From Leptolyngbya sp. BC1307 (GTDB taxonomy: Bacteria > Cyanobacteriota > Cyanobacteriia > Phormidesmidales > Phormidesmidaceae), in contig NZ_NRTA01000014.1 of NCBI RefSeq assembly GCF_002286735.1, positions 1 to 64,000 of the forward strand: a stretch of DNA of 64,000 nucleotides, written 5' to 3'. The translations under genes were made by a program, and so were the position numbers. Within the stretch, counting starts at the first letter, position 1; each line of letters begins with the position of its first letter. Positions 27,821 to 31,605 of this stretch are shown here, in pieces. Below the pieces are notes generated by a model that made no database searches, had not been told where the DNA came from, and saw nothing but the letters and a program-made list of their open reading frames with translations.

Positions 27821-27907
27821 AGGCTTGCGCTGTTAACAGTTGTAGCTGGTCTCAGTTGGCGGGTCTGATCTGTTGAGCCGACTTTTGAAGTCTACATCTT
27901 ATATATC

Positions 27908-27949
27908 TAATGGATATTGGCTAATAGATATTGGCTAATGGATATTGGA
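27908..27949. repeat. 14-bp tandem repeat, three copies
   Basis: TAATGGATATTGGC, TAATAGATATTGGC and TAATGGATATTGGA follow one another without a gap. They lie between the DUF92 gene and the winged-helix gene, just 3' of the latter's stop. Confidence 0.85.
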
Positions 27950-27978
27950 TATATAGACGCAGACAAAACGGCTGACGG

Positions 27979-28602
27979 TTACTTTGCCTTAGTGACACTC
28001 TCCGACTGAGAGTAGCGACCGTTGCGACCCCGATACCAGGTGCCGTCACGAGCGCCCGCTGACAAAATATTAGAGATGCGGTTCCGAGCCTTGAGGAAGG
28101 AGGGGCGTGGCATGTCTTCACTAAAGATAGAAGACATCACATCGGCGATCGTAAACACCTCTGAGGGCTGAGAGCGCAAAACACTGCTCACCGCTTCAGG
28201 TAAAGCTGCTTCGTGGTACTCAGCTTGAACATACTTTTGCCAGTTCGCCGCTCTGCCGTCCTTTTTCTTACGTGGTGTGGATGTTTTGTCAGCCTTTGGC
28301 TCCCGCCCTGATTTGGCCTTAGCTGCTGTCTTAGTCGTTTTCTTGGCAGCAGGTTCGCTCTTTTCAGCTACAGGTTCTTCAGCTGCGGGTTCTTCAGCTG
28401 CGGGTTCTTCAGCCATCGGCTCCACGAGAGCAGGTTCTGAAACGACAGCCTCTTCGCCATCTGACGCTTGGAACATGTTGATCACAGTACGTAAGCCCTG
28501 CCGCTGCTCTTGTAGCTGAGAAAGTTTGGTTTCTAAGGTTTCGACTTGCTGGGCGAGGTCAGTCTCAACAGAAACAAGCTGGGAAAGGACAGGGTCGCTC
28601 AT
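27979..28602 (-). CDS. Coiled-coil / basic linker / winged-helix protein (paralogue A)
   Basis: A 207-residue protein in three parts. Residues 1-47 form a heptad coiled coil (LVSVETDLAQQVETLETKL). Residues about 58-83 are an acidic repeat (EEPAAEEPAAEEPVAE), then residues 84-118 are strongly basic, Lys/Ala/Thr-rich and disordered-looking (KKTTKTAAKAKSGREPK). Residues 120-200 look like a compact winged-helix module (VFTIADVMSSIFSEDM, FLKARNRISNILSAGA, WYRGRNGRYS). The C-terminal module and the coiled coil are clearly shared with the gene at 30874-31605. The layout recalls linker-histone-like nucleoid proteins. No function is known to me. Confidence 0.75.
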   Translation of the reverse strand: MSDPVLSQLVSVETDLAQQVETLETKLSQLQEQRQGLRTVINMFQASDGEEAVVSEPALVEPMAEEPAAEEPAAEEPVAEKSEPAAKKTTKTAAKAKSGREPKADKTSTPRKKKDGRAANWQKYVQAEYHEAALPEAVSSVLRSQPSEVFTIADVMSSIFSEDMPRPSFLKARNRISNILSAGARDGTWYRGRNGRYSQSESVTKAK

Positions 28603-28822
28603 TTTTTAAAAATCCTCATAGCAGTAATGGTTTCCTTGTTGCTTATTGTGACAGTCTCTGCGAGATTGTCTTTGTACAAAGTGAGTGTAGCGTTTTCTGC
28701 GACCTTTGCTAAGCGATCAAACAATTGTGTAAAAATCTTGTCATCAGTTTCGTCTATTCCTGGAGTTTGCTATCAATGACCGCTTTTGCAGACTGTGCGG
28801 GCAGCAGTGGTTAGCGAAACGG

Positions 28823-29682
28823 CTAGCGAAACACAATTGTCTTGTGATTATGCAGCATGACCCGGTCTTCGATATGGTAGCGGAGCCCTCTAGCCAAGAC
28901 TGTTTTTTCAATGTCCTTGCCGTAGCGGGCTAGGTCGCCGGGTGAATCGGAGTGATCGACGCGCAGCACGTCTTGATCGATGATGGGACCGCAGTCTAGA
29001 TCTTTAGTCACATAGTGACAGGTGGCTCCAATGAGCTTTACCCCGCGAGTATGGGCTTGGTGATAGGGTTTGGCCCCGATAAACGACGGTAGAAAAGAAT
29101 GGTGAATATTGATAATGCGGCCTGGGTAGCGATCGCACATGGTTGCCGACAAAATCTGCATATAGCGCGCAAGCACCATCACCTCTCCCCCTACGGCTTC
29201 AAAGTGAGCCATCATCTCTTCGCAGGCTGCCGCTTTGGTCTCACGGCTGACAGGCACATGATGAAAAGGAATGCCGTGCCACTCAACTAATCCGCGAAAC
29301 GCCTCGTGGTTAGAGATAACGCAGACGATGTCGATGGCTAACTCATGGCTGCGCCACCGCGACAGCAGGTCGTCAAGGCAATGGCTACTTTTAGACACTA
29401 AGAGCGCTACGCGCTTTCTCTGCGCCGAGTCTCGAATGGCCCAGTCCATTTTAAACTGCTCTGCTATCGGGCGAAATCGCTGCTGCAACTCCCCAAGCTT
29501 GAAGGGGAGAGAGTCCGCTAAGATCTCTTGCCGCATAAAAAACGCTGGCCCTCCTGCTCTGAGTGGTGCTGAGCCTCACTGATCCAGCCGTGGCTATCGG
29601 CTATCAGTGAGCTGACTGCGGCGACGATGCCAATGCGGTCTGGGCAAGAGAGGGTAAGAATGTAACGCCTGGAAGAGGTCAT
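28823..29682 (-). pseudogene. purU: Formyltetrahydrofolate deformylase with a -1 frameshift
   Basis: The catalytic domain is intact: RKRVALLVSKSSHCLDDLL, ARYMQILSATMCDRYPGRII, NIHHSFLPSFIGAKPYHQAH, GATCHYVTKDLDCGPII. It would release formate and THF from 10-formyl-THF. The N-terminal ACT domain starts at ATG 29682 (MTSSRRYILTLSCPDRIGIV, ending HHSEQEGQRF) but is in a different frame. The frames meet at a run of six T (29537-29542 on the + strand as A). One extra T would restore a normal product of 286 residues. The junction reads T TTT TTA in the zero frame, a classic -1 slippery heptamer, and an ATG for the downstream frame lies right behind it. Sequencing indel, pseudogene and slippage are all possible. 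Confidence 0.85.
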
Positions 29683-29806
29683 AATCGATAGGAGGGCTCA
29701 CTAGTGACTGATGCTATCAGAGATAAAGATAAAGCTCAGGGCGTTCTTCCAGATAGAGGCAGCTAAACGGGTATGATGCCGTTTAGCAACGTTCTTTCTC
29801 TATCTT

Positions 29807-30379
29807 ATGCGCGCGCTTCGTATCCTCATTCTCCTAGTGTTTTTGCCAGCAGGGTTGGGATTGCTCATTCAGGCGGCTGACCCAGCATTAAGTCTGACAG
29901 TAAGTCACATCAGCGGAGCGCAGCGGCTGCTGTCACTGTCATTGGCACTGTTCTGCCCAGAACTCGCGCATATGGCCATCGTAGATCTCAATAATATTGC
30001 AGCGGTTGCCGAATTACAGGAGGACTCTCGTCTACGTCATTTCTCCAAAGTCACTGTTAGTACTGTTGTTCTAGAAGCGGTCGGATTTTACGCGGCGCTG
30101 GTTTCTCTTCAGTGGGGAGTAATCGCTATTATCTTCAGTCAGCTCTGGTTCAATCTGCTAGCGGGCATACAGCTGTGGCCAGGGCAGTCTCCGCCTATTA
30201 CCCCGCACGGTATCTCTGATCGGCGAGCCGTTTTGATAGCCAATGGCTTAGGGCTAGGGCTCATCAGTCTCTGGCCCCTGCAAGCAGTTCGGATTTGGCT
30301 AGCTGCTGGGCTGTTCACGCTGATCACTCTCTTTTTAGTGATTAAGTATGGCTGGCAAAAGGTAGAGCAGGCGCGATAG
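29807..30379 (+). CDS. Conserved integral membrane protein, unknown function
   Basis: A 190-residue protein with about five predicted membrane helices: residues 4-23, 40-65, 82-112 (interrupted), 140-160 and 165-182. It starts MRALRILILLVFLPAGLGLL and contains a polar loop (ELQEDSRLRHFSKVTV) after helix 2. It looks like a cyanobacteria-specific membrane family but I recognise no catalytic motif. It is divergent from purU and stands alone. A weak hairpin terminator may lie about 140 bases downstream. Confidence 0.65.
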   Translation: MRALRILILLVFLPAGLGLLIQAADPALSLTVSHISGAQRLLSLSLALFCPELAHMAIVDLNNIAAVAELQEDSRLRHFSKVTVSTVVLEAVGFYAALVSLQWGVIAIIFSQLWFNLLAGIQLWPGQSPPITPHGISDRRAVLIANGLGLGLISLWPLQAVRIWLAAGLFTLITLFLVIKYGWQKVEQAR

Positions 30380-30873
30380 AGACTCTAAAAATGTCTGAGT
30401 GCAAGGCTAGGTGCGTCCTGGCGATCGCCTAATGTCATGGATCAATGCCATTAGTAGCAGAGCGATGGCTGGTAATTGTTGGGAGGCCCCAACATCTGTT
30501 TTGGCATCTGTTTTGGCGAAAAAGCCCACGGCATAAGGGTCGCCGGCTTTTGTGCAATAGCTAAAAGCTGAAAGTTGTCATGTTCAAATACAGCCACTTG
30601 CTCTCTCTGAATGTTATGTGAGCAGGGCATACAGCCGTTGATTTAGACCGGACTATTCTGTAATCTCCCGGATATTCGCAAAAAAAAAGTCGAAAAAAGA
30701 CTTGATTAAAAAGAAGAAAGTGTTTTAATAGTGTTATTCTCGAAAAAGATATTTCGTCCAAAAGCATTTCAGGTAAAGGTTTTCCTGCAGACACTGCCGG
30801 AACTTCTGCTGCAAGGCACTTTCACCAAAACATCAATACTAAAACCTAAACACAATCACGGAGAATATGACCT
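30380..30873. other. Long leader/promoter region of the winged-helix paralogue B
   Basis: I see no gene in these 494 bases. They hold a perfect 12-bp tandem duplication CATCTGTTTTGG (30493-30516), a hairpin described separately, and an A/T-rich stretch (about 30680-30760) with several TATA-like boxes, consistent with a strong or regulated promoter for the downstream gene. Confidence 0.5.
30518..30552 (+). terminator. Possible terminator
   Basis: AAAAAGCC with CGGC on the left pairs with GCCGGCTTTT on the right after a short loop, ending in a T run. It would end the transcript of the membrane-protein gene at 29807-30379. Confidence 0.45.
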
Positions 30874-31605
30874 ATGTCTACATCTGTTTTGCCCCAGCTC
30901 TTAGAAGTGGATTCTGAGCTGTCGGCACAAGCGAGTACGTTAGAAGCTCAGCTAAAGCAACTGCAGGAAAAGCGCAAAGGCATTCGTACTGTTATTGCGA
31001 TGTTTGAGTCAGGTAGAGCACCTGCAACCGCTGACATTCCTGAAATTGTCGAATCAGCGCCCGCCGAAGAGCCTATCGAAGAGCTCACCGAAGAGCCCAC
31101 CGAAGAGCCCACCGAAGAGCCCGTCGCTAACCAGACGACCAAAACCAAAGCAGTTACTAAAAGAAAAACAAAAGCGACCACAGCTAAGACCACTAACGCT
31201 AAGGCCACTAAGACTAAAGCGAAGCGCGGTCGCCCGGCCAACGCAAAAGCCGCCGTATCTGCTGATTCGTCTGAAGCTAAGCCTGAAGTTAAGCCAGATG
31301 CTAAGGCAACAGCCAAGCAGAGCGGTAGATCATCCAACTGGCACCGCTACGTGCAAGAGACCTATCGCCAAGCGCCTCTGCCCGATGTCGTTGTTGGCGT
31401 GTTGCAGGCTCAGCCCGGTAACGTCTTTAAGATTGCCGACGTTATGAGTGCAGTCTTTAAAGAAGACATGCCCGAGAATTACTTCTTAAAAGCCCGCAAC
31501 CGTGTCTCTAATATTTTGTCTGCGGGTGCCCGTAGTGGTGAGTGGTATCGGGGACGAGGCGGCACTTACAGCGTCTCTGAGAAGGCGATCGCGCGCGTTG
31601 GCTAG
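30874..31605 (+). CDS. Coiled-coil / AT-hook-like linker / winged-helix protein (paralogue B)
   Basis: A 243-residue paralogue of the 27979-28602 product. Residues 1-47 form a coiled coil (LLEVDSELSAQASTLEAQL). Residues 60-85 are an acidic EEPT repeat encoded by 12-bp DNA repeats. Residues 87-128 are a basic linker with TKAKRGRPANAKAAV, whose core RGRP (residues 118-121) is the AT-hook minor-groove motif. A second, mixed-charge linker precedes the winged-helix-like module at about 154-233 (VFKIADVMSAVFKEDM, FLKARNRVSNILSAGA, WYRGRGGTYS). The upstream gap is long and promoter-like, and a strong terminator follows. A nucleoid or gene-regulatory role is inferred from layout only. Confidence 0.78.
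   Translation: MSTSVLPQLLEVDSELSAQASTLEAQLKQLQEKRKGIRTVIAMFESGRAPATADIPEIVESAPAEEPIEELTEEPTEEPTEEPVANQTTKTKAVTKRKTKATTAKTTNAKATKTKAKRGRPANAKAAVSADSSEAKPEVKPDAKATAKQSGRSSNWHRYVQETYRQAPLPDVVVGVLQAQPGNVFKIADVMSAVFKEDMPENYFLKARNRVSNILSAGARSGEWYRGRGGTYSVSEKAIARVG

Follow-up and report, generated by a model that had tools for sequence, protein, structure and literature searches.

This locus in the cyanobacterium Leptolyngbya sp. BC1307 raises the question of whether two paralogous genes, here named A and B, encode chromosome-organising proteins, and of which kind. Both genes lie on contig NZ_NRTA01000014.1 (assembly GCF_002286735.1), of which positions 1 to 64,000 were analysed; this stretch of 64,000 nucleotides is referred to as the window. 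A first-pass annotation had described the two products as linker-histone-like paralogues with a eukaryote-like chromatin architecture, and as a possible nucleoid-organising pair. In this study, we found both open reading frames (ORFs) at the annotated positions, and their paralogy was confirmed.

27979..28602, minus strand: gene A, ORF of 207 amino acids with a coiled coil, an acidic-then-basic linker and a winged helix; isoelectric point (pI) 5.7
30874..31605, plus strand: gene B, ORF of 243 amino acids with a coiled coil, an acidic-then-basic linker containing RGRP, and a winged helix; pI 9.35

We propose, with a probability of about one half, that A and B are oligomeric DNA-bridging nucleoid-associated proteins with a charge-tunable linker. 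By analogy they would act like H-NS, MvaT, Lsr2 and Rok, to which they show no detectable homology. The A/B family combines the scaffold of Rok with a charge gradient like that of H-NS, and DNA-bridging nucleoid proteins are therefore proposed.

N-terminal helix and selection on the end modules

We first describe the N-terminal modules of the two proteins, which occupy the following positions.

28468..28590, minus strand: A N-terminal leucine-heptad helix, residues 5-45, with Leu or Phe at 9, 16, 23, 30, 37 and 44; the counterpart in B is modelled as a single helix
30886..31008, plus strand: B N-terminal helix, residues 5-45, an AlphaFold2 helix over 5-45 with a block predicted local distance difference test (pLDDT) score of about 92-93 over residues 11-40

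A and B were identical at 25 of 46 residues in this region. Val, Ile, Leu, Met or Phe occupied positions 9/16/23/30/37/44 with a mean frequency of 0.97 over 44 relatives, and the a/d pattern was significant by permutation (p 0.0004). These leucine-type heptads supported the coiled-coil N-terminus that had been annotated in both proteins. The leucine heptads and the one helix predicted by the model suggest a candidate oligomerisation domain.

Orthologues were then compared module by module. Identity among B orthologues (5 genomes) was 78-89% in the helix, 27-41% in the linker and 69-82% in the winged helix, and the corresponding values among A orthologues (6 genomes) were 61-80%, 35-44% and 82-90%. 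For each end module, nonsynonymous divergence (dN) was far below synonymous divergence (dS) in every comparison that allowed dS to be computed; several comparisons were saturated. Judged from these coding sequences, the helix and the winged helix are under purifying selection. The conserved end modules and the drifting linker suggest that the former are selected for their sequence and the latter apparently for its charge order.

Charge order of the linker

The linkers and the AT-hook core of B are located as follows.

28246..28467, minus strand: A linker, residues 46-119, acidic AEEPA repeats and then Lys-rich; charge -11 then +9
31009..31335, plus strand: B linker, residues 46-154, predicted disordered, pLDDT mostly 47-53; charge -12 then +15
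31225..31236, plus strand: B RGRP AT-hook core, residues 118-121, in the basic linker half; occurs once, in B

The two linkers were identical at only 15 of 67 aligned residues. In agreement with the first-pass annotation, both are acidic and then basic, and this order exceeded residue shuffling (p 0.0005 for A and 0.0015 for B). The acidic part of A overlaps a 15-bp tandem DNA repeat (28363-28413), and that of B a 12-bp tandem DNA repeat (31059-31122). The RGRP core, which had been noticed in one linker, appeared by chance in 0.05% of shuffles of the B linker. Of the 7 B orthologues, counting B itself, 5 carry it, and A does not; the five carriers among 60 scored relatives (B included) were all B orthologues.

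The charge order was also examined across the family. Starting from 95 non-identical proteins, 66 had one winged helix and a length of 150-290 amino acids, and 60 of these were scored; six were dropped as the end-of-helix pattern was not found in them (L049, L054 (N-truncated), L030, L031, L032 and L033). X-containing proteins (the B copy of genome G296, and L038/L128) were left out of the linker-charge, wing-motif and shuffle/heptad analyses. Of the two linker halves, the second was the more positive in 59 of the 60 relatives; it was itself positive in 59/60, and the first half was negative in 43/60. The charge order beat shuffles of the protein's own residues at p < 0.05 in 49 of the 60, which are not independent of each other. 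These results demonstrated that the order of charge is conserved.

Predicted fold of the C-terminal module

The C-terminal modules, identical at 54 of 88 residues, are given below.

27982..28245, minus strand: A C-terminal winged helix, residues 120-207, 61% identity to the B module; wing W-Y-R-G-R at 28024-28038
31336..31602, plus strand: B C-terminal winged helix, residues 155-243, from AlphaFold2 and structural matches; wing W-Y-R-G-R at 31543-31557

AlphaFold2 modelling of full-length B with a 44-sequence alignment gave a confident helix over residues 5-45, a disordered stretch in which pLDDT was mostly about 50, and a compact domain at the C-terminus that was again confident. The B module alone was modelled with a pLDDT of 87.3 and a predicted template modelling score (pTM) of 0.79. 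The model contained helices at 20-30, 38-45 and 52-72 and strands at 75-77 and 82-85, which is the winged-helix order. The winged helix named in the first-pass annotation was thus supported by the model. Structural comparison with VIA-align matched the module to winged helices of many kinds, with LACTB2 at Z 10.0 (root-mean-square deviation (rmsd) 2.9, 76 residues aligned) and Z-alpha, MarR, Fur, IclR and AspA at Z of about 8-9. An [RK]GR motif was found at the wing in 24 of 71 domains, with an RGE-type motif in 16 and others in 31. The wing R-G-R is only a lead at most, and it is not family-wide.

The main rival to our proposal is that A and B are ordinary dimeric site-specific transcription factors, with a coiled coil for dimerisation, a winged helix that recognises an operator and a linker that serves as a passive spacer. 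The nearest folds speak for this explanation, as they are generic and count MarR-, IclR- and Fur-type regulators (Z 8-9) among them, and so do the invariant residues on the long third helix (A58, R59, R61, S63 and N64 of the module). However, A and B have no ligand or sensor domain, their strong charge polarity is kept despite the drift of the linker sequence, and up to 10 near-copies occur in a single genome. We therefore regard it as possible and doubtful. The neighbours of the paralogues other than A and B were compared solely with the neighbours in the window; a conserved target operon may lie beside those paralogues.

Comparison with linker histones and RNA polymerase delta

In H1 and H5, the globular domain is followed by a long basic tail. 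A and B resemble them in combining a winged helix with a long basic segment that is disordered and rich in Lys and Ala. They differ in that this segment precedes the winged helix, in the extra coiled coil and acidic stretch, and in the lack of a profile match. No member of a 27-sequence family alignment matched PF00538 or PF05066 at an expectation (E) value of 1 or below. A search of this genome with PF00538 gave 0 matches at E <= 10; no control genome passed the cut-off, and this search had no positive control. PF05066 also gave 0 matches in this genome at E <= 10, and three control genomes were over the cut-off.

By hhalign, the probability was 7% for the chicken H5 globular domain (GH5) and 5% for the RNA polymerase delta domain, and both scores were slightly above those of all 146 unrelated fragments. 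The near-equal scores against this null indicate that the likeness is that of winged helices in general. In a Foldseek search, histone H1.0 chain 6lab_U was at rank 31 (TM 0.55/0.65, E 0.14). No H1/H5 or HARE-HTH chain was among the VIA-align matches listed, which excludes nothing. Pfam, the genome profile search, hhalign and the fold search together gave no specific link to either fold, and we rejected linker-histone and HARE-HTH homology as specific claims.

It is thus extremely unlikely that A and B are true linker-histone (H15) homologues and a eukaryote-like chromatin component in a bacterium, as the first-pass annotation implied. The combination of a winged helix with a Lys/Ala-rich basic segment, the rank of 6lab_U and the in-register alignment of GH5 with the second half of the domain fit such an origin. 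They are outweighed by the missing PF00538 match and low hhalign probability, the many unrelated winged helices ranking above H1.0, the basic segment on the other side of the domain, and the restriction of named relatives to cyanobacteria.

The same searches bear on a second explanation, in which A and B are RNA polymerase delta-like (HARE-HTH) proteins or RNA-binding transcription modulators and the acidic stretch is a nucleic-acid mimic. In Bacillus subtilis delta, a winged-helix-type domain likewise carries an acidic tail, and the 5% hhalign probability exceeds the 146 null fragments. However, delta is not known to have a coiled coil or a basic linker, the H5 score of nearly equal size marks the likeness as generic, and PF05066 found nothing in this genome while detecting its targets in the three control genomes. 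This explanation is very improbable.

Comparison with nucleoid-associated proteins

In the available excerpts of PMC6936261, the H-NS/MvaT/Lsr2/Rok class is described as having an N-terminal oligomerisation domain, a flexible linker and a C-terminal DNA-binding domain. Rok has a winged-helix DNA-binding domain and a predicted coiled coil at its N-terminus, and in H-NS-type bridgers the N-terminal part is negative and the linker and DNA-binding part are positive (PMC6936261). A and B share with Rok the predicted N-terminal coiled coil, the flexible linker, the C-terminal winged helix and the small size (PMC6936261). The linker of Rok is neutral according to the parts available of PMC6936261 and PMC9757077, whereas that of the A/B family is acidic and then basic. 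The minor-groove residues of Rok are N-T-R. The flexible linker of the class has a counterpart in B, where pLDDT is mostly about 50 and the low-complexity sequence drifts fast.

With H-NS, MvaT and Lsr2, A and B share the charge asymmetry from a negative N-terminal part to a positive linker and C-terminal part (PMC6936261, in part); within the family it appears as the more positive second linker half in 59/60 scored relatives. The R-G-R of the A- and B-type wing recalls the Q/RGR motif described for H-NS and Lsr2 in the same excerpts (PMC6936261). The DNA-binding fold, however, is not the same.

Two further proteins were considered. HBHA of Mycobacterium tuberculosis has a coiled coil and a Lys/Ala-rich basic region, as A and B do, and differs from them in that it is not known to have a winged helix. 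It has been reported as nucleoid-associated in the part available of PMC10665949. HU is present in this genome, as detected with Pfam. The AbrB-type protein cyAbrB2 of Synechocystis is, like A and B, cyanobacterial, and differs from them in protein type. It is a nucleoid-associated protein proposed to act in an H-NS-like manner, and before making this proposal the 2024 paper stated that cyanobacterial nucleoid-associated proteins "remain unidentified" (PMC11368403, in the text available).

On this anatomy, the proposed DNA bridging would proceed as follows. Dimers or higher oligomers would form through the N-terminal heptad helix. Two winged helices would then grip two DNA segments with the aid of the Lys-rich linker halves, to which B adds its RGRP core, and a dimer holding two segments in this way could bridge DNA. 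The acidic linker half probably folds back onto the basic half or the winged helix, which would weaken DNA binding in a salt-dependent manner. The paralogues may also mix via their similar coiled coils, and the proteins may silence AT-rich or foreign DNA.

Several observations weigh against this proposal. The AlphaFold2 model is a monomer, and oligomerisation and DNA binding are predicted only. The overall pI of A is acidic (5.7), and the charge of the winged helices, only +3 and +4, is low for a protein that would compact DNA. The commonest use of a winged helix is as a module of an ordinary transcription factor. The Foldseek search gave no match at E <= 0.001. Homology of the winged helix to that of Rok was rejected, since hhalign gave 0.1% and 103 of 146 unrelated fragments scored as high or higher. 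Lsr2 (PF11774) and H-NS (PF00816) had 0 matches in this genome at E <= 0.01, and the controls were detected in C. glutamicum and E. coli. Profile matches in at least 56 of 386 cyanobacterial genomes also indicate that the family is not a universal nucleoid organiser.

As for the nucleoid-organising pair of the first-pass annotation, a chromosome-organising role appears most likely, and this part is retained; the term "pair" is too narrow, as this genome has four copies and one relative as many as 10.

Spread of the family

A and B had no significant match in Pfam, NCBIfam or PHROGs, and B had none among the sequences of solved structures. Weak whole-protein matches (Tim54, CCDC106, TonB, p300 and similar) were below cut-offs and fell on the low-complexity linker, and they were discarded. 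Literature searches, whose coverage left out most subscription papers, found no paper on the A/B family. The family is unnamed, unannotated and multi-copy.

Four family copies, A and B among them, were found in this genome. Intact domains per genome in the gathered set ranged from 1 to 10, with 4-6 in the genus. B alone, used as the query, matched 21 of 58 relatives at E <= 0.001, with this genome counted among them. When 84,980 species genomes were scanned with a close alignment, 40 loci were found, all cyanobacterial by title, in Phormidesmis, Leptolyngbya, Leptothoe, Adonisia, Vasconcelosia and similar hosts. With a wider family profile, the domain was found in at least 56 of 386 sampled cyanobacterial genomes (at most 14 candidates scored per genome), 41 of the 56 being from one family. 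The usual form among these matches was a coiled coil followed by two winged helices. No family relative was found in the viral contigs and phages searched. Resolution of the winged-helix family tree was poor, with good support for 26 of its 68 inner branches; A orthologues formed a separate well-supported group. Alignment A3 was made without L140 (truncated) and one X-containing L128 ORF, and A4 without the L128 ORF.

Some relatives depart from the A/B form. A Leptolyngbyaceae metagenome-assembled genome (G311) has ten intact copies on ten contigs, a lineage-specific expansion. The protein at L077:2085-3035 (G294:C79) has the family winged helix at its C-terminus, and its N-terminal part weakly resembles ComJ (E 1.2e-4, below the Pfam cut-off). 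No A/B-type N-terminal heptad helix was seen in it, so the winged-helix domain looks portable. A 470-residue protein (L078:286-1698, G317:C294) has the winged helix at its N-terminus and then pentapeptide repeats. A 496-residue open frame (G340:C115:14399-15283) has three winged-helix matches, and the same genome holds more copies.

Tandem-winged-helix relatives were found on plasmids of Nostoc, Trichormus, Halotia, Gloeocapsa, Acaryochloris and Rippkaea (21 records), all 20 listed of the 21 being annotated "hypothetical protein"; the plasmid search gave no relatives of B itself. A tandem-winged-helix-type gene adjoins parA/parB at L154 3347-6760 and L157 697-4586 (Gloeocapsa pGLO7428.02 and a Halotia branconii plasmid).

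These plasmid copies raise the explanation that A and B bind DNA as accessory factors in the partition or maintenance of replicons. Relatives stand beside parA/parB in 2 of 8 plasmid regions, and the archaeal partition protein AspA is a structural match (Z 8.5, rmsd 2.5, 71 aligned), tied with many others. However, 6 of the 8 regions have no annotated par genes nearby, and the conserved block around A and B themselves (ribD, thioredoxin, DUF92, purU and rbp) contains no par genes. We consider this explanation improbable.

If A and B are DNA-bridging proteins, a bolder version of the proposal can be formulated, which we hold to be rather unlikely. The family would be independently arisen cyanobacterial H-NS-type xenogeneic silencers, with a Rok-like coiled-coil/winged-helix scaffold, an H-NS-like charge gradient and a minor-groove contact by the R-G-R wing tip. 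The nucleoid would be tuned as the 4-10 paralogues mix via the coiled coil that they share, and the tandem-winged-helix copies on Nostocales plasmids would be "stealth" proteins.

Gene neighbourhood

As annotated at first pass, A and B are transcribed divergently with two genes between them.

28823-29536, minus strand: purU, Formyl_trans_N E 8.7e-41 (Pfam)
29807-30379, plus strand: membrane-type ORF of 190 amino acids, no Pfam match
27907-27957: 14-bp tandem repeat, 3.6 copies, CTAATAGATATTGG, just 3' of the A stop codon

The A-B pair was present in 7 of 7 genus genomes examined (G000, that of the window, and G292-G297). Barring contig ends and single losses, the gene order across the genus is ribD, thioredoxin, DUF92, A, purU, membrane ORF, B, ORF446 and rbp. 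In the genus, A adjoins purU and DUF92; between A and B, purU is absent in G297 and has a partial match in G296. The membrane-type ORF is retained between A and B genus-wide and has a weak, sub-cut-off NCBIfam match to the VP0952 biofilm-associated protein. In Vasconcelosia, an A-like copy likewise lies beside DUF92, thioredoxin and ribD, which indicates that the position of A predates the genus. A promoter and terminator scan gave no more hits than shuffled sequences. The neighbouring genes suggest no particular function.

Significance

A family that is unannotated, present in several copies and built like DNA bridgers provides a concrete set of candidates for cyanobacterial nucleoid proteins. 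If the proposal is true, an H-NS-like design would have arisen independently in this family, and an acidic/basic linker free in sequence and kept in charge order would make the charge-autoinhibition model directly testable. If it is false, A and B still belong to a winged-helix family of cyanobacteria that is unnamed and has expanded in a lineage-specific way.

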